Assembly (NCBI RefSeq): GCF_003602005.1
Contig: NZ_QZWD01000004.1
Location: forward strand, 62,001-126,000
Source: Salinisphaera sp. Q1T1-3
Lineage (GTDB): Bacteria > Pseudomonadota > Gammaproteobacteria > Nevskiales > Salinisphaeraceae
Reading direction: 5' to 3'
Length of the DNA: 64,000 bases
Made by a program: the position numbers and the translations under genes. The notes beneath the pieces were generated by a model, which saw only the letters and a program-made list of their open reading frames with translations, made no database searches and was not told where the DNA came from. Each line of letters begins with the position of its first letter. Position 1 is the first letter of the stretch. Below, piece by piece: positions 34,429 through 42,711 of the stretch.

Positions 34429-34962
34429 TCAGGTCTTTTCGACCTGATCGAATTCGAGATCGACCGGCGTCGAGCGACCGAAAATGGTCACCGCGACACG
34501 CAGCCGGTTCTTGTCGTAGTTGACTTCCTCGACCACGCCGTTGAAGTCGGAGAACGGCCCGTCGATGACGCGCACTTCCTGACCCGGCTCGAAGACCGTC
34601 TTCGGGCGCGGCTTGTCGACGGACTCCTCGACCCGATTGAGAATCTGATCGGCCTCGGCGTCGGTGATCGGCGCCGGCCGGTCGGCGGTGCCACCAATGA
34701 AACCGAGCACACGAGGCACGCTCTTGACGAGGTGCCAGGTGTCGTCATTCAGCTCCATGTTGACCAGCACATAGCCCGGAAAGAACTTGCGCTCGGTGGT
34801 GCGGCGCTGACCGTCGCGCACTTCGACCACTTCCTCGGTCGGCACGAGGATATCGCCGAAATAGTCTTCCATCTCGTGGCGGGCCACGTAGTCCTTGAGC
34901 GAGTCACGGACTTTCTTCTCGTACTGCGAGAAGGCCTGAACCACATACCAGTGCTTGGCCAT
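34429..34962 (-). CDS. nusG: Transcription termination/antitermination factor NusG
   Basis: 177 residues. The N-terminal NGN domain begins [20 protein letters not shown]. The C-terminal KOW domain is [19 protein letters not shown]. NusG links RNA polymerase to Rho or to the ribosome through S10. It follows secE by 15 bases. Confidence 0.97.
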
Positions 34963-34977
34963 AACTGTCCTTCGCGC

Positions 34978-35352
34978 TTACGCGCGCCCCGTGAGCATTG
35001 TCACCGCATAGGCGAGGACCACATCCAGCGCCCAGATGAAGGCTGCCAGTATGATCACGAATACGACCACGAGCAGCGTGGTCTGCACGGTTTCGCGACG
35101 CGTCGGCCAGACCATGCGCCGCAACTCGGTTCGGGAGCCCTGCACGTAGGACCACGCCGTCTTGCCGATCGCCGACTGAAATGCGATCAGCGCCGCCACA
35201 ACCACGCCGCCGAGCATGCCCAGCACGCGAATGAGATCGGAATAGGCCGTGAACCAGTAGTAACCAGCGATGCTGGCCACGAGAACCAGGATGGCGAGCC
35301 AGAGCAGCGCCGTGTCGAGCGCGCTCGCAGAGCGTTGTTCGGAAGTTGCCAT
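34978..35352 (-). CDS. secE: Preprotein translocase subunit SecE
   Basis: 124 residues with three hydrophobic segments, the long proteobacterial form. The conserved amphipathic stretch TELRRMVWPTRRETVQTTL precedes the last membrane helix. It clamps SecY. It lies between tRNA-Trp and nusG. Confidence 0.96.
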   Translation of the reverse strand: MATSEQRSASALDTALLWLAILVLVASIAGYYWFTAYSDLIRVLGMLGGVVVAALIAFQSAIGKTAWSYVQGSRTELRRMVWPTRRETVQTTLLVVVFVIILAAFIWALDVVLAYAVTMLTGRA

Positions 35353-35388: not shown

Positions 35389-35464
<76 letters not shown>

Positions 35465-35656: not shown

Positions 35657-36847
35657 TCAGACCGTAATCTTGGTCACGACGCCCGCACCCACGGTGCGGC
35701 CGCCTTCGCGAATGGCAAAGCGCAGGCCTTCTTCCATCGCGATCGGGTGGATGAGTTCGACGTTCATCGTCACGTTGTCGCCCGGCATCACCATCTCGGT
35801 GTCCGCCGGCAGTTCACATGCGCCCGTCACGTCGGTCGTGCGGAAGTAGAACTGCGGACGATAGCCCTTGAAGAACGGCGTGTGACGACCGCCCTCTTCC
35901 TTCTTCAGCACATACACTTCGCATTCGAACTGCGTGTGCGGCGTGATCGATCCCGGCTTGGCCAGCACCTGACCACGCTCGATGTCTTCGCGCTTGGTGC
36001 CGCGCAGCAGCGCGCCGATGTTGTCGCCTGCCTGACCCTGGTCCAGCAGCTTGCGGAACATCTCCACGCCGGTGACGGTGGTCTTGGTCGTCGGGTTGAT
36101 GCCGACGATTTCGATGTCGTCGCCCACGTTGACGATGCCGCGCTCGACGCGACCGGTCGCCACGGTGCCACGACCCGAGATCGAGAAGACGTCTTCAACC
36201 GGCATCAGGAAGGCACCGTCCACGGCACGCTCCGGATCCGGAATGAAGGCGTCCATCGCACGAACCAGCTTGGCGATCGATTCCGAGCCGTGCTCGCCTT
36301 CGTCGCCTTCCAGCGCCTTCAGCGCGGAACCCACGATCACCGGCGTGTCGTCGCCCGGGAAGTCGTAGGCGTCCAGCAGTTCGCGCACTTCCATTTCGAC
36401 GAGTTCGAGCAACTCTTCGTCGTCGACCATGTCGGCCTTGTTCAGGTACACGACGATGAACGGCACGCCAACCTGGCGCGCCAGCAGAATGTGCTCGCGC
36501 GTCTGCGGCATCGGGCCGTCAGCCGCCGATACCACCAGAATCGCGCCGTCCATCTGCGCGGCACCCGTGATCATGTTCTTCACGTAGTCCGCGTGACCCG
36601 GGCAGTCGACGTGCGCGTAGTGACGCGTCTCCGACTCGTACTCCACGTGCGAGGTCGAGATCGTGATACCACGCGCCTTCTCTTCCGGCGCCTTGTCGAT
36701 CGCGTCAAAGGCCGACAGCTCCGAACCGAACAAACGGTTCGAAACCACCGTCAACGCCGCCGTCAGCGTCGTCTTGCCATGGTCCACGTGACCAATCGTG
36801 CCGACGTTTACGTGCGGCTTGCTACGCTCGAATTTTGCTTTGGACAT
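35657..36847 (-). CDS. tufB: Elongation factor Tu, copy 2
   Basis: 396 residues, identical to the copy at 18882-20072. It starts with ATG. The DNA match runs from the second base of the start codon to about three bases past the stop, which points to ongoing gene conversion between the copies. It lies downstream of tRNA-Thr, as tufB does in E. coli. Confidence 0.98.
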
Positions 36848-36953
36848 TGCCTCGCCTTTCGCCGTTGGGCTTCAAGTACCGACCGGGGCGCAACACGCAC
36901 CCGGCAACCCATACAAGCGGCGCGCTCTTTACGACCGCACCGCACGCGTTCAA

Positions 36954-37028
<75 letters not shown>

Positions 37029-37063
37029 CAACAAGTTGTCGATACCAGCTCGACGAGTCGAAC

Positions 37064-37137
37064 TGGAGCGGGCGACCGGAATCGAACCGGCATCATCAGC
37101 TTGGAAGGCTGAGGTTCTACCGTTGAACTACGCCCGC
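37064..37137 (-). tRNA. tRNA-Gly (TCC)
   Basis: 74 bases with encoded CCA. Acceptor GCGGGCG/CGCCCGC, anticodon loop CTTCCAA. It corresponds to E. coli glyT. The 287 bases between it and tRNA-Tyr hold no gene; a weak TTGCAT-17-CAGAGT promoter-like pair lies just upstream of it. Confidence 0.97.
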
Positions 37138-37424
37138 ACGCTCAACGCTGACAGACTCTGGCCAATCGTTGCGTTCGATGCAAGCCCCGCGCTGCGGCAC
37201 CTGCCAGGGAACGGGAATCGCCGAGCGGCCGGTCAAGCCGCTTCGATTCCAAAGATCGCCGAGCCATTAACCGGCAAAACCATGGCATGACGCCACTTGA
37301 ATGCGGCACTGCCTTGGTTTGGCCTGCGAATAGCACCGCCCTGAAAGCGGCTTACCCGGCGCTCGATTCCGCGACCTGCGCGTGACAGGCTCCCGCAATC
37401 GCCAGACCATTACTCATGTTTATG

Positions 37425-37509
37425 TGGTGGAGGGAGGAGGATTCGAACCTCCGAAGGCTGAGCCGACAGATTTACAGTCTGTTCCCTTTGACCGCTTGGG
37501 TATCCCTCC
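37425..37509 (-). tRNA. tRNA-Tyr (GTA)
   Basis: 85 bases with a long variable arm and encoded CCA. Acceptor GGAGGGA/TCCCTCC, anticodon loop CTGTAAA. It corresponds to E. coli tyrU. Confidence 0.97.
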
Positions 37510-37524
37510 CCAATCGAGCGGCGC

Positions 37525-37552
37525 ATTTTGGCAAATTCGCAGCGCTTGTCAA
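37525..37552 (-). promoter_or_regulatory. Promoter of tRNA-Tyr
   Basis: Minus strand TTGACA (37552-37547), 16 bases, CAAAAT (37530-37525), 16 bases ahead of the tRNA 5' end. Confidence 0.65.
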
Positions 37553-37717
37553 CCATGATGTCGCAATCGGCTGGCCACGGCATCTCGCTCGGCCAGCTGC
37601 CAGGCGATGCCGACGTCTCGCGAGCCCGGCGCGGCGCCCGGCCCACGGGGCCGCGACGGCCACATCGCCGCGCATGCCGGACATCCGTCGTCCATGGCAC
37701 GCGTTGCCGCGCGCATC

Positions 37718-38734
37718 TCAGTAGTAGATGTTGAGCGCTGCCTGCGGCGTGACCGTGGCGGCGGCGTTACGACCGGCCGCGACAACCTCAGCCCCGACGA
37801 TGACGCCGTAGTGCTTGTTCCAGTTGTATTCCAACGCCGGCGCTATCGAGATCGACTCACTGGAATCGCTGCTGCTCCGGACCGGCGTGATCAGGCCGTC
37901 GGCCGCTCGACTGCCCTGGATGACGCCACCCTGGCTGTGGTTGTAGACAATATCGATGGCCGGCGCCCAGTGACGTGTGAGGCTGTATTCGAAGGCCAGA
38001 TCCGCCGAATAGCTGTCACCGGTCTCCACGTGTCCGTTGAAGCCGGCCGGCGTACCGTAGACGCTGACACCATCGACCGAGGCGTCGGCATCGGCGAACG
38101 TATAAGTGAAATTCAGGCGTGCGCGCAGGATCCGGCCGTTCGGCAGCCAGAAATAATCCTGAGTGAAGAGGCCGACGGTGCTGGACAGCACGCCGCTCCC
38201 TAGACCATCGGCTACGTGTCCCTGGAGCCCGTCGTATTTGCCGGTCGGAAAGTTTTGCGCATACGACAGCGCGACGGTCGGCAACAGACTGCCTTCGGAA
38301 AAGGCATGGACCATGTACTGCATGCGCAGCGTGGTGTCGCCGAGCTGGACACCCTGACTGTCCGGCCCCTCGTCGGCCACGTTGTAACCGAAACTCGGCA
38401 ACAACGCGATGGTTAGCCGGTCAGTGAATCCGTATTCAAGCAGTGTGACGGATCGATACGCATGGCTGTTGCTCGTGTTGTGCGAGTCCCAGTCGTTGTC
38501 GAACTGACCGTACTGGATGGAATCCACCACATACGGCTCGATGTTCCAGTGGCCCGCCGGCAGAGCGGTCGCGTTGGGCGCGACCAGCGGGCCCGTGAAC
38601 AACGCATCCGACATCGGCTGACGAGTCGTGCCGGTACGCGGAACCGGCGCCGCGCTCGCACTCGTGACCTGGCCTGCCGTGATCAGCGTCGCGGCGGCGC
38701 CGAGCACCACCCGCTTCAGCGATAGATCTTTCAT
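37718..38734 (-). CDS. Outer-membrane beta-barrel protein of unknown substrate
   Basis: 338 residues from ATG 38734, with AAAGAGA upstream. A signal peptide covers about residues 1-29 (charged MKDLSLKR, hydrophobic core, SASAA). The mature part is rich in alternating aromatic/polar strands with short acidic turns and ends in AALNIYY, an aromatic C-terminus expected for an outer-membrane barrel recognised by BAM. Such proteins are often labelled transporters of the phenol-degradation MetA type, but I cannot name a substrate. It lies with the APC permease gene inside the old tRNA array. Confidence 0.65.
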   Translation of the reverse strand: MKDLSLKRVVLGAAATLITAGQVTSASAAPVPRTGTTRQPMSDALFTGPLVAPNATALPAGHWNIEPYVVDSIQYGQFDNDWDSHNTSNSHAYRSVTLLEYGFTDRLTIALLPSFGYNVADEGPDSQGVQLGDTTLRMQYMVHAFSEGSLLPTVALSYAQNFPTGKYDGLQGHVADGLGSGVLSSTVGLFTQDYFWLPNGRILRARLNFTYTFADADASVDGVSVYGTPAGFNGHVETGDSYSADLAFEYSLTRHWAPAIDIVYNHSQGGVIQGSRAADGLITPVRSSSDSSESISIAPALEYNWNKHYGVIVGAEVVAAGRNAAATVTPQAALNIYY

Positions 38735-39046
38735 GATTCTCTTTGGTCGTCGATGAGCAGCCGCGCCGCGGCCCGGACGCAGCCGCTCCGCACCCGGGAT
38801 TGCCTTCCGCCGGCGCCGCCGCGCGGGCCGCTTTTGCCACAGCCTCTGGAAACGCACAAGCAGAATCGATCTCACACGCGCCATCCGGCACGCAGCGGAC
38901 ATGCCACGATCCGCTTCCGCCGCGCGTTGCGCGGCCGGCAGCGACATCGTGCGCCGCGTGAGCCGGACCAAGGCGCCGCCCGGCCCGATACACGCGGATT
39001 CAGCGGACCGCCGAGCGGCTGATCCGTCCTGGACCTATCGATAGCG
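38735..39046. other. Intergenic stretch without a supported gene
   Basis: 312 bases between the outer-membrane protein gene and the APC permease gene, both on the minus strand. I see no ORF, terminator or convincing promoter; it presumably contains the start signals of the barrel gene. Confidence 0.5.
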
Positions 39047-40666
39047 CTACGTCAGCGAATGCGCCGACTCGCTGCCCTCATCGGCCAGAATCTGGTCGAT
39101 CGCGTGCTGCGTTTCGGACGGCGTGAGCGCGGTCCTGTACGCGATCCACATGACCACGAGGCTCCAGATCGCCAGCAGGATCAGTTCGGTCACGAAGCCG
39201 AGCACGCCCAGGCCGTTGCCGATGTCACCCAGCGCGGAGAGCAACCAGATGCCGCCGAACCAGGGCGCAAGCCAGGCGATGTGGCGCCAGCCGAATTCAT
39301 CTCCCGGCATGCGCGCGACGAAATGGTAGTACAGGGCATAGATGACGAAACCGATGCCGATCAGGATGAACAGGACAGAGTTCGTGTAGAACCCGGCCCA
39401 GTAGATGATCCAGTTACTCAAGATGAAAGCGATCGGCGCCAGGATGTTGGCCCCTGCGAGTTTGAACGGCCGCGCCACGTCCGGCGCATTGCGCCTCAGA
39501 CACAGCAGCACGACCGGACCGATGCCGTAGGTCAACACCGTGATCGACGTGATATAGCCGACCATCTTCTGCCAGGCCGGGAACGGCAGCAGGAACAGAC
39601 AGCCGACCACCCACATCACGAGCACGCCTACCCACGGCACGCCCTGACTGTTCAAGCGCGCCAAACCGCTGGGCCCGGCCTTGAGTCGGCCGTTGGCCAT
39701 GAGGATGCGCGAGCCGCCGGTCAAAAACATCAGCCCGGTCCCGCCCGGCGAGACGTAGGCATCGATATAGAGGATCGCGGCGAGCCAGGTCATCCCGAGG
39801 CCGGCCGCCAGACCGGCGAATGGCCCGAGATCGCCAGCGAAGGACAACGCGGCCCAGCCGCCGCCCAACTCGCTCGGATTGATCGACATGATGAAGGCGA
39901 CCTGCAACCCCACATAGACGATGCTGGCCAGTATCACGGAGCCGATGACCGCGAACGGCATATAACGATTCGGATTGCTGCTCTCCCCGGCCAGATCGAT
40001 GGCCGTCCGGAAGCCGAGGAAACTGAATACGATGCCGGCAGCCGGCAGCGCCGTGAAAATGCCCGAAATCTGATAGCTGCCCGGCGCGGCGTGCATGTTC
40101 TCTGGATGCCAGGCAACGACGATCAACCCGATGATCGTGGCAACCGGCACGAAGATCTTCCACCACGTCACGGCCGAGTTGAACTTGAGCAGCGTACGCA
40201 CGGCCAGCAGGTTCAGCCAGGCGAGCAAACCGATCAGGAGCGCGGAAACGATGAAACCGGTGACGGTCAGAACGCCGTTGTCCGGACTGACCAGAAACGG
40301 CAGATAGTTGTTCGCGTAAGTGACGATCGCCTCGGCCTCGACCGGTGGAATCGGCACATAGGCCAGAAACAGCATCCAGCCCCAGATGCGGCCCAGGCCG
40401 CTGCCGTGGCTGGCGTGGCTGATGTGCACGAGCGCGCCACTGCGTGGAAACATGGTGGCCAGCTCGGCGAAGCAGAACGCCAGCATGAGAATGATGACGG
40501 CCCCGATGATCCAGCTCAGGATGCTCCACGGACCGGCGAGCTTGGCCGCGTGGTATGCACCGAACAGCCAACCCGAGCCGATCATGCTCGTGGTGCTGGC
40601 AAACAGAAGACCGATCGGGCCGGCACTCTGTCTCAGCTTGCCGCCTGCGGCGGATGATGTGGCCAT
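39047..40666 (-). CDS. APC-superfamily amino acid permease
   Basis: 539 residues with about 12-14 hydrophobic segments. The N-terminal GPIGLLFASTTSMIGSGWLF carries the G-S-G unwound-helix motif of amino acid/polyamine permeases. Further typical features are GESSNPNRYMPFAV and GGSRILMANGRLKAGPSG. It is an inner-membrane importer or exchanger; the substrate cannot be told. Spacing of 312 bases to the barrel gene makes a shared transcript possible. It lies between two tRNA genes that are neighbours in E. coli. Confidence 0.85.
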   Translation of the reverse strand: MATSSAAGGKLRQSAGPIGLLFASTTSMIGSGWLFGAYHAAKLAGPWSILSWIIGAVIILMLAFCFAELATMFPRSGALVHISHASHGSGLGRIWGWMLFLAYVPIPPVEAEAIVTYANNYLPFLVSPDNGVLTVTGFIVSALLIGLLAWLNLLAVRTLLKFNSAVTWWKIFVPVATIIGLIVVAWHPENMHAAPGSYQISGIFTALPAAGIVFSFLGFRTAIDLAGESSNPNRYMPFAVIGSVILASIVYVGLQVAFIMSINPSELGGGWAALSFAGDLGPFAGLAAGLGMTWLAAILYIDAYVSPGGTGLMFLTGGSRILMANGRLKAGPSGLARLNSQGVPWVGVLVMWVVGCLFLLPFPAWQKMVGYITSITVLTYGIGPVVLLCLRRNAPDVARPFKLAGANILAPIAFILSNWIIYWAGFYTNSVLFILIGIGFVIYALYYHFVARMPGDEFGWRHIAWLAPWFGGIWLLSALGDIGNGLGVLGFVTELILLAIWSLVVMWIAYRTALTPSETQHAIDQILADEGSESAHSLT

Positions 40667-40900
40667 AAGCCTTTTCCTCGAAAGTCACTGCAGATGATGC
40701 GAGCCGACACGCGCACGGCGCAGCGGCGATCCTGCTGACAAGCGAAAATCACGCCATGCATACGGCCCGGAAACACGAGCCTAGCGGCCTGGATGCACGA
40801 TAACGAGGATAACCGCGCGCTACTTTAGTGCTATGGCCAACGATCCGGCCACGCTGGTGCGCCCGGATGCACAGTCACCAACAACGCAACGAGGGACGAG

Positions 40901-40976
40901 TGGAGCCCGCGACCGGAGTCGAACCGATGACCTGCTGTTTACAAGACAGCTGCTCTACCAGCTGAGCTACGCGGGC
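40901..40976 (-). tRNA. tRNA-Thr (TGT)
   Basis: 76 bases with encoded CCA. Acceptor GCCCGCG/CGCGGGC, anticodon stem GCTGT/ACAGC, loop CTTGTAA. It corresponds to E. coli thrU, which there directly precedes tyrU. Confidence 0.97.
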
Positions 40977-41101
40977 GTCGTCGAGCGGTATTCTGAATGC
41001 TCTGGCCCGGATTGGCCATAGGCAACACGAGCGCCGGCGGCCATGCGCCCCGTCCGTACCCGCTGACTCGCCGGCCCGAAACCCGTCTCGCCTGGCCGAC
41101 C

Positions 41102-42085
41102 TTACGCCAGGCGCAGGCTCACATCCCCGGAATACACGGCCTCTCGGCGCCCATCGATCTCGACGATGAGGCTGGCATCGTCGTTGAGCCCGCGTGCGAT
41201 GCCGAATCGCTCGTGGCGCCCGTCGATGATCCGTACGGGCTGGTCGACGGTAAGATCGAAACATGGCCACTGTCGGGCGAACGGCGCAAAACCCGCCGCC
41301 GCGAACGTGTCCAGCGCGCGCAACACAGCGTCGAGACAGCGACCGGCAATCGTGCTCCGGGCCGGCATGCGCGTCACGTGATCGGCCAGGCGCGTCCAGG
41401 GCTGATCGATGGGTGACGAGGCAGTCGCCGGCATGGACAGATTGAGCCCTAGACCGGCGACCACACGCGCAATGCCGGAGGCCTCGCTGCGGGCCTCGAT
41501 CAGAATCCCGCCGACCTTGGCCTGTCCGACCCAGAGGTCGTTCGGCCATTTCAGGGCCATGCCACGTACGCCGAGGTCCGTCAGTGTCTCGGCAACCGAC
41601 ACGCCGATCGCCAGGCTCAAGGCGCCGAGCGGCGCGCCGGCGGCCATCAGATCGTGCCCGACCGACAGATACAGATTGCTCGCCATGGGCGAAACCCAGG
41701 CCCGGCCGGCCCGCCCTCGGCCAGCGCTTTGCTGCTCGGCCAGACAGGCCCGCGTGGCACCGTCGTCGTAAGCGGCCAGCCGGGTGTTGGTCGAGTCCGT
41801 GTGCTGCATGATGAGCAGCTGATCGAGCAGCCCGACCGCTCGCGGACCGAGTTCGTGGCGCACTTGTTCACCGTCGAGCAGATCGAGCGGTGCGGCCAGC
41901 CGATAGCCGCGCCCGGAAACGCTGAACACATCGAGCCCCGTTGCACGCAGACGCCCGATTCGTGCCGAGATCGCCGACCGCGTGACGCCCAGTGCCCGCG
42001 CCAACGCCGGGCCGCTGTGCCATTCGCCGTCAGCCAGTTCCGCCAGAAGCCGGTCCGGCATCTCGATTCGATCGGTCAGGGGCAT
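41102..42085 (-). CDS. birA: Biotin--protein ligase / biotin operon repressor BirA
   Basis: 327 residues from ATG 42085; the longer open frame lies within plsY. An N-terminal winged helix (about 20-63, ALARALGVTRSAISARIGRL) would bind DNA. The ligase core has AGRGRAGRAWVSP (121-133) and KWPNDLWVGQAK (179-190), where the last lysine matches the catalytic lysine of E. coli BirA. It biotinylates acetyl-CoA carboxylase. It overlaps plsY by ten bases and precedes tRNA-Thr as in E. coli, but no coaA follows. Confidence 0.94.
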   Translation of the reverse strand: MPLTDRIEMPDRLLAELADGEWHSGPALARALGVTRSAISARIGRLRATGLDVFSVSGRGYRLAAPLDLLDGEQVRHELGPRAVGLLDQLLIMQHTDSTNTRLAAYDDGATRACLAEQQSAGRGRAGRAWVSPMASNLYLSVGHDLMAAGAPLGALSLAIGVSVAETLTDLGVRGMALKWPNDLWVGQAKVGGILIEARSEASGIARVVAGLGLNLSMPATASSPIDQPWTRLADHVTRMPARSTIAGRCLDAVLRALDTFAAAGFAPFARQWPCFDLTVDQPVRIIDGRHERFGIARGLNDDASLIVEIDGRREAVYSGDVSLRLA

Positions 42086-42711
42086 CGTTGCGAGACCTTG
42101 TGCCCGTCGCGCCGGGCAAGGCGCGGCTCGGTCCCGGCCGCCAGGCGTTGCAGGTTGGGCCGATGAGTATAGACGATCAGCGCGAACGCACAGACGGCCA
42201 GCCCCGAGGCCGCCGCCGGCAAGCCCGGCACCAGACAGGCGCTCAGCACGCAGGCCGCGCCCCCGCCGAGGGTGGCTACCGATACGATCCGGCGCCAGGC
42301 GAGCAACACCGCAAAGACAAGGCAACCGACCACGAGCGCCAGCGGGAGCAGAATGGCGAACACGCCGACGGCCGTGGCCGCGCCCTTGCCACCACGGAAA
42401 CGATGAAAGACCGGCCAGACATGGCCGGCGATCGCCAGCCAGCCGCAGGCGTAAGGCCACGGCAGGTCCGGGGCGATCAGGCCCGACACGAACCCGGCCG
42501 CCACCGCCCCCTTGACGGCATCGAAGGCCAGCACCGCCCCGCCGTAGGCGCGCCCGCCCACACGCCAGGCATTGGTGGCGCCGGCGTTGCCGCTGCCGCG
42601 ATCGCGCACGTCGGAAACCCCGAACACCGGTGCTAGCACCAGCGCGCCGGAAAACGAACCGATCAGGTACGCGGATACGAGCGCCAGCGCGATGGCCATG
42701 CCCTCAAGCAT
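42076..42711 (-). CDS. plsY: Glycerol-3-phosphate acyltransferase PlsY
   Basis: 211 residues with five predicted membrane segments. The family motifs GSGNAGATNAWR and GHVWPVFHRFRGGKG are present, along with THRPNLQRL near the end. It transfers acyl groups from acyl phosphate to glycerol-3-phosphate in phospholipid synthesis. An alternative ATG at 42699 is possible. Overlaps birA. Confidence 0.93.
   Translation of the reverse strand: MLEGMAIALALVSAYLIGSFSGALVLAPVFGVSDVRDRGSGNAGATNAWRVGGRAYGGAVLAFDAVKGAVAAGFVSGLIAPDLPWPYACGWLAIAGHVWPVFHRFRGGKGAATAVGVFAILLPLALVVGCLVFAVLLAWRRIVSVATLGGGAACVLSACLVPGLPAAASGLAVCAFALIVYTHRPNLQRLAAGTEPRLARRDGHKVSQRCP

Follow-up and report, generated by a model that had tools for sequence, protein, structure and literature searches.

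A gap between two tRNA genes upstream of tuf in Salinisphaera as a probable integrase-free, exchangeable slot between transcription units

Why should a conserved array of transfer RNA (tRNA) genes ahead of the elongation factor gene tuf be interrupted by two transport-type genes in one bacterium and by quite different operons in its relatives? The question is raised by Salinisphaera sp. Q1T1-3 (assembly GCF_003602005.1), in a stretch of 64,000 nucleotides (contig NZ_QZWD01000004.1, positions 62,001 to 126,000), hereafter called the window. The gene order confirmed on its minus strand is plsY-birA-thrU(TGT)-permease-barrel-tyrU(GTA)-glyT(TCC)-thrT(GGT)-tuf-trpT-secE-nusG, in which thrU, tyrU, glyT and thrT are the Escherichia coli names given to genes with the same anticodons. 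A previous sequence-only reading had stated this order from birA onwards, the anticodons and the two-gene gap as ARAGORN, Rfam and Pfam now find them, and had interpreted the gap as an insertion at a tRNA locus that split an ancient array. That interpretation proved partly right. We consider it likely that the stretch is an exchangeable slot, free of integrase genes, between two transcription units, and that its cargo here would be a resident pair of genes for a permease and an outer-membrane barrel. In the window genome (G000) the gap between thrU and tyrU measures 3391 bp, and the slot and its borders are made up as follows:

40901..40976, minus strand: tRNA-Thr(TGT), thrU, the upstream border of the slot (ARAGORN; Rfam RF00005, 69.5 bits)
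39047..40666, minus strand: APC-superfamily amino acid permease, 539 aa, cargo gene 1 (PF13520, PF00324)
37718..38734, minus strand: predicted outer-membrane beta-barrel protein, 338 aa, cargo gene 2 (PF13557 matched by the sister-genus homologue)
37525..37552, minus strand: promoter-like block of tyrU, TTGACA, 16 nt, CAAAAT (consensus scan; conserved place in relatives)
37425..37509, minus strand: tRNA-Tyr(GTA), tyrU, the downstream border of the slot (ARAGORN; Rfam)

The state of the slot could be read in 13 of the 17 genomes of the family, with one genome per species, and these display five states (four cargo types and an empty gap) between the same flanking genes. The permease and barrel genes occupy the gap in three genomes, namely the window genome, G004 (3193 bp) and G013 (3200 bp), and the barrel gene alone is found in G005 (1313 bp) and G011 (1315 bp). 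Five genomes carry a formate dehydrogenase operon (G006, 6817 bp; G007, 6812 bp; G008, 6687 bp; G014, 6761 bp; G016, 6677 bp), accompanied by an oppositely oriented LysR-like gene. The alpha subunit of this operon in G014 scores 914.9 bits against a TIGR01591 cut-off of 666, with the other four being 88-95% identical to it; the NuoF-like subunit matches below its cut-off, and the small subunit and the LysR-like gene were named by eye. The 6556-bp gap of G001 holds genes for an H-NOX protein, two kinase-like proteins and a response regulator with an HD domain, and the gap is empty in G010 (150 bp) and G012 (149 bp). The slot was unreadable in G009 (a contig ends at birA, and tyrU has no match), in G015 (neither birA nor tyrU matched), and in G002 and G003, where thrU lies near birA and tyrU is elsewhere, unlinked. 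The thrU-tyrU gap is thus an exchangeable slot that holds different passenger genes in different Salinisphaera species. No description of this gap was found among open-access titles and abstract openings on Salinisphaera permeases and genomics, the thrU-tyrU array, and the tufB/tRNA-Tyr region of Pseudomonas.

Outside the family, G017, a neighbour within the order, has the arrangement plsY-birA-coaX-thrU-459 bp-tyrU, without permease, barrel or cargo of the other kinds. Sixty other loci were also read, 40 of them at class level, where at least 239 of 281 genomes had a tyrU match, and 20 at order level, where 78 of 85 genomes had one; three of these 20 fall in the family, which leaves 57 of the 60 outside it. 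Altogether, thrU lies upstream of tyrU on the same strand in 13 of the 60, at a distance of 7-459 bp in nine and across kilobase cargo in four, one of which is G001. Cargo of this size therefore appears in three of the 57 loci outside the family: an aconitase gene in L220 and L234, perhaps a single event because both belong to family f87, and a UDP-glucose dehydrogenase gene in L229.

What would allow one junction to accept such different genes is suggested by the DNA directly before tyrU. A promoter-like block, defined as at least 9 of 12 consensus bases with a spacer of 16-18 within 70 bp of the tRNA gene, precedes tyrU in every one of the 12 Salinisphaera slot loci and in 54 of the 60 other loci, with a form resembling TTGACA and a spacer of 16 or 17. 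Such a block precedes glyT in none of the 12 slot loci and one of the 60 others, and thrT in none and three, respectively. Single-base shuffles of the tyrU regions satisfy the same definition in 2.2% (slot loci) and 6.4% (other loci) of cases. Since the tyrU block is nearly universal and blocks before glyT and thrT are nearly absent, the thrU-tyrU junction is probably a boundary between transcription units and not the middle of an operon as in E. coli. The upstream unit would comprise birA, coaX where present, and thrU, and the downstream unit, tyrU-glyT-thrT-tuf, would start at its own predicted sigma-70-type promoter directly before tyrU. If the block does act as a promoter, DNA placed after thrU and ahead of it would break no tRNA operon, so that various operons could have come and gone; the position of the boundary would then explain the tolerance of insertions, with the cargo moving by ordinary or illegitimate recombination.

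The familiar arrangement against which this locus has to be judged is the tufB operon of Salmonella and E. coli, in which a promoter region precedes all four tRNA genes and tufB (PMC6134099). The window is alike in its order of thrU-tyrU-glyT-thrT followed by EF-Tu, and differs from the operon as described there in that tyrU has a promoter-like block of its own and thrU lies 3.4 kb away across the cargo (PMC6134099). Both features speak, at the level of sequence, against a single promoter upstream of thrU for the four tRNA genes and tufB. Among the loci read, L215 is the only one in which thrU and tyrU are as close as 7 bp, and it has no promoter-like block, as would be expected of a single operon like that of Salmonella; five other loci also have none. 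The anticodons of the window tRNAs are those of the E. coli thrU-tyrU-glyT-thrT genes. The proposal that an ancient contiguous array was split here appears weak, given that the tyrU block is nearly always present and that thrU stands close upstream in only nine of the 60 other loci.

Several observations weigh against this account and should be kept in mind. The 60 other loci were hand-picked, those at class level for intact context, and 47 of them show no thrU in the stretch read (at least 2.3 kb), so that the slot is not assessable there; this number includes L200, where coaX, an aconitase-like frame (identified by eye) and tyrU follow one another with no tRNA-Thr called between. In the window taken alone, the promoter scan returns one promoter-like site against 1.0 expected in shuffles, which is chance level, and the weight of the tyrU block would accordingly lie in its conserved place and not in the window scan. 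A block close to thrU is present in none of the 12 slot loci and in three of 14 elsewhere, and the cargo might therefore be read together with thrU. Moreover, the type of thrU and the presence of the permease show the same conflict with the rpoB tree. The acceptor stem of thrU reads GCCCGCG/CGCGGGC in the three permease carriers G000, G004 and G013 and GCCGGCG/CGCCGGC in 10 of the 11 other genomes listed, with that of G001 differing by one further pair; G005 and G011 do not share the variant of the permease carriers. As the thrU type tracks the permease and not the rpoB tree, thrU and the cargo may have been exchanged together. Likewise, the permease of G003 falls outside a group of G002 and Salinisphaera (95/88), whereas rpoB pairs G002 with G003, a conflict that may reflect paralogy, a long branch or transfer. 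Finally, the barrel tree, which omits L104, is too unresolved to test descent, with four of its six inner branches open.

The history of the slot within the family can nevertheless be sketched from the rpoB tree, which lacks G011 (present only as a fragment) and includes a partial G010. The window genome groups with G009 and G005 (support 100/99), G004 groups with G013 (96/94), and all five form one clade (99/96). Because G005 nests among the permease carriers, the simplest account would be one arrival of the permease and barrel together and one loss of the permease; the pair would have entered the slot before G000, G004 and G013 diverged, and the permease is missing in G005 and G011, whose barrels are nearly identical in the barrel tree. 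The empty-gap genomes G010 and G012 group with the formate dehydrogenase carrier G008 (82/90) and contain elsewhere only paralogues of about 35% identity to formate dehydrogenase, with no close copy. This position beside a carrier, together with the lack of anything closer than these paralogues, suggests that their gap was probably emptied. G013 and G002 have close copies of the formate dehydrogenase (81-84%) at places other than the slot, and G015 and G003 have them on contigs without a link to it; nothing in the tree of these copies conflicts with vertical descent.

With respect to the origin of the cargo, the slot permeases nest in a clade confined to the family, which includes further copies from G002, G003 and G015 only (96/99 in the permease tree). 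Within this clade G015, G000 and G004 with G013 branch as they do in the rpoB tree. The permease tree omits L040, L046 and L047, as well as the records L034 and L057, whose genomes are already represented. GC content at third codon positions (GC3) is 0.85 and 0.78 in the two cargo genes, as compared with 0.79-0.85 in their neighbours, and a foreign origin by composition, which was considered, is unsupported by these host-like values. Given the family-only clade and the host-like GC3, the slot was probably entered by genes already resident in the family; there is no indication of a recent import from outside, and the cargo looks native to the family. A broken permease copy belonging to the slot clade was also observed amid other genes in G015 (L096, C169).

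Genomic islands targeted to tRNA genes carry an integrase and attachment (att) repeats, and the window resembles them in having variable genes beside a tRNA gene and differs in having neither an integrase nor a flanking repeat of a tRNA 3' end. Insertion of foreign DNA at thrU or tyrU by a tyrosine recombinase, followed by loss of the integrase, would agree with cargo that lies between two tRNA genes and varies among species, and with a repeat of the tRNA-Tyr 3' end that eight of 12 Salinisphaera slot loci have some 160 nt downstream of the gene. These repeats, however, are on the glyT side of tyrU, away from the cargo, and correspond to RtT RNA units in the three loci scanned with Rfam (G013, G016 and G006). 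In the window, the cargo is not flanked by duplicates of the thrU or tyrU 3' end: no second copy was found at up to three mismatches, save for the related ends of glyT and thrT, and a check around positions 37510 and 40900 for duplicates or attachment remnants, as the sequence-only reading had proposed, returned none. No integrase gene lies in the 3391-bp gap, which is mostly filled by the permease and barrel genes, or among the cargo genes inspected in relatives (the frames read were those of at least 150 aa in the five formate dehydrogenase gaps and of at least 60 aa in G001, with the main ones being searched). Taken with the family-only permease clade and the host-like GC3 of the cargo, this makes an island very unlikely, and the idea of tRNA-targeted integration is not supported. 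It is even less probable that the two genes stood between thrU and tyrU in a common ancestor and were lost or replaced elsewhere. Clade permeases do occur in two genera of the family, but the barrel gene, which is rare and mostly restricted to the family, is present in only six of 85 genomes of the order, all from this family, and in six of 369 genomes of the class sample, two of these being Salinisphaera; moreover, the 459-bp gap of G017 contains neither gene, and the G002 pair is located elsewhere. The result that would have refuted the sequence-only reading, the same two genes between these tRNA genes in many distant families, was not found, and the suggestion that they are specific to this lineage is borne out, with the relatives' gap being empty or differently filled.

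A different explanation holds that the place was chosen for expression, such that transcription from birA-thrU, close to the highly expressed tuf and rpoBC genes, would run on into the cargo and strongly needed operons would be kept there. The cargo is indeed mostly oriented as thrU (permease, barrel, formate dehydrogenase subunits and aconitase), only one weak terminator-like site (40766-40753) separates thrU from the permease, and the whole region contains four terminator-like sites as compared with 2.8 expected. The UDP-glucose dehydrogenase gene, the LysR-like genes and some G001 genes face the opposite way, and we regard this explanation as unlikely, less strongly so than the two preceding ones. 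An exchangeable slot at a transcription-unit boundary is the reading we prefer for Salinisphaera. Its extension, by which the thrU-tyrU junction would be a 'safe harbour' throughout the Gammaproteobacteria, set by the tRNA promoter boundary, where resident operons relocate repeatedly without a recombinase and thrU may move together with its cargo, is speculative and rather doubtful.

Repeats of tRNA 3' ends at this locus deserve description in their own right. RtT RNA, a family described from the E. coli tyrT locus, is represented in several Salinisphaera by units (RF00391) that contain a copy of the tRNA-Tyr 3' end and lie between tyrU and glyT. No RtT RNA was found in the window from 36900 to 41100, and nothing on RtT RNA in this lineage was found among the titles surveyed. 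The units located with Rfam are:

L079, 9069-9198 and 9245-9378: RtT RNA units in tandem (G013)
L082, 5218-5351: RtT RNA unit
L083, 13332-13463: RtT RNA unit

In G017 the 3' end of thrU is repeated downstream (142 nt, exact; L180 from 7744), and in four genomes of family f4 (L186, L187, L195 and L196) the 3' end of thrT is repeated about 90-110 nt downstream with 0-1 mismatches.

Cargo gene 1 encodes an APC-superfamily permease, as its product matches PF13520 along the transporter core (residues 19-430, E 1.1e-36, 127.1 bits against a cut-off of 27) and also PF00324 (E 6.1e-25). No named subfamily or substrate emerged from NCBIfam, in which 21 models match, all under their cut-offs; the best of these, TIGR00909, gives 102.6 bits, with a cut-off at 556.8. 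The closest solved relative by sequence is 5oqt (E 2.6e-18), and the homologue in Salinisphaera hydrothermalis C41B8 (L034; genome G004) is 82% identical. The 338-aa product of cargo gene 2 is most likely an outer-membrane barrel, to judge from a signal-like N-terminus and an aromatic C-terminus (both noted by eye) and from its relatives. The homologue in the sister-genus genome G002, which is 55% identical, matches PF13557 (Phenol_MetA_deg) with 46.6 bits against a cut-off of 22, and two distant homologues fall just below the same cut-off (21.5 and 21.8). Unlike the G002 protein, the window protein has no Pfam match of its own, PF13557 included, and together with the proteins of G005 and G013 and the S. 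hydrothermalis piece it gives no PF13557 hit up to E 1. Searches with nine barrels returned one chance-level hit among profiles of solved structures (E 0.68) and one chance-level hit only in NCBIfam. An AlphaFold model made from two sequences has a mean predicted local distance difference test (pLDDT) score of 27.8 and is of no use for judging the fold. The barrel gene of S. hydrothermalis C41B8 (L081/L034) shifts to another frame near its 5' end, which may indicate a pseudogene or a sequencing error.

Do the two cargo genes work together? The sequence-only reading had proposed a possible uptake route. In such a route the barrel would pass amino acids, perhaps aromatic ones, through the outer membrane and the permease would carry them inward. 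The linkage of the two genes is consistent with this: they have the same order and orientation in the slots of G000, G004 and G013 and at another place in G002, where, behind a second permease gene, only the last 19 barrel residues are matched, which would fit a joint duplication of both genes. The G002 pair follows the gene for a decarboxylase that most resembles indolepyruvate decarboxylase (468 bits, under the cut-off of 946); close by are genes for an Lrp/AsnC regulator and for an aldehyde dehydrogenase whose nearest match is StyD, a phenylacetaldehyde dehydrogenase (533 bits, below the curated cut-off of 850 for that name); a Glu/Leu/Phe/Val-dehydrogenase-like gene and genes for an amino-acid-type ABC transporter lie near the second permease, and PF13557, matched by the G002 barrel, bears a phenol-degradation name. 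This context suggests that the linked pair may take up aromatic or similar amino acids. On the other hand, two Salinisphaera genomes (G005 and G011) have retained the barrel and no permease, the barrel frame is interrupted in G004, and the family scores of the G002 enzymes remain below curated cut-offs. Likewise, none of 24 distant permease loci contains the barrel gene in the stretch examined, and none of four distant barrel loci contains the permease gene within 17 kb. We therefore treat cooperation of the two proteins in amino-acid uptake as a tentative possibility; the second linkage in G002 favors it, and the barrels kept alone do not.

The genes that flank the slot were identified as listed below. 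ARAGORN calls five tRNA genes in all, and Rfam returns the same five.

42076..42711, minus strand: PlsY-like gene, conserved upstream anchor (adjoins birA in relatives too, tblastn)
41102..42085, minus strand: BirA, biotin ligase/repressor, conserved upstream anchor (Pfam PF03099, E 6.4e-14)
37064..37137, minus strand: tRNA-Gly(TCC), glyT (ARAGORN; Rfam)
36954..37028, minus strand: tRNA-Thr(GGT), thrT (ARAGORN; Rfam)
35657..36847, minus strand: EF-Tu, tuf (Pfam PF00009, E 4.5e-63)
35389..35464, minus strand: tRNA-Trp(CCA) (ARAGORN; Rfam)
34978..35352, minus strand: SecE (Pfam PF00584, E 1.1e-18)
34429..34962, minus strand: NusG (Pfam PF02357, E 8.9e-30)

The name plsY for 42076..42711 is a putative one, given from the sequence. 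Between birA and thrU, where coaA lies in E. coli, the window has 125 bp (40977-41101) with neither coaA nor coaX, the gene for type III pantothenate kinase that occupies this place in other Salinisphaera. Across the 17 family genomes, coaX is present in 10 and was not found in G000, G004, G005, G009, G011, G013 and G015, and coaA (TIGR00554 over its cut-off) was found in G000, G004, G005, G009, G011 and G013 only. This pattern is a pantothenate kinase swap within the family. G015 has neither gene over cut-off, and since its birA match is absent as well, the assembly may miss this stretch. In G013, a gene for an OprB-family porin (PF04966, E 1.1e-47; L079 13204-14361) lies between birA and thrU, which makes a second occupied gap adjoining thrU.

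The nearest known kind of locus is the chromosomal hotspot without mobile elements. Oliveira et al. (2017, PMC5635113) report that half of their hotspots are without evidence of mobile elements and that 27% lack integrases and transposases. The slot has the hallmark of such hotspots, namely the same core flanks with different accessory genes and no integrase (PMC5635113), and no mobility genes were found in its intervals, within the frames read. It differs in scale, as the comparison in that study was made among genomes within each of 80 species (PMC5635113) and turnover here occurs between species of a genus and family, and in that the cargo looks family-native and the border is a tRNA promoter-like block. 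What the present locus adds is a likely reason for the place. A probable transcription-unit boundary would explain in concrete, testable terms how unrelated operons come to occupy a single gap of a conserved locus with no integrase involved, and it warns against taking the contiguous tRNA-tufB operon of E. coli as an ancestral state that other bacteria have 'split'.

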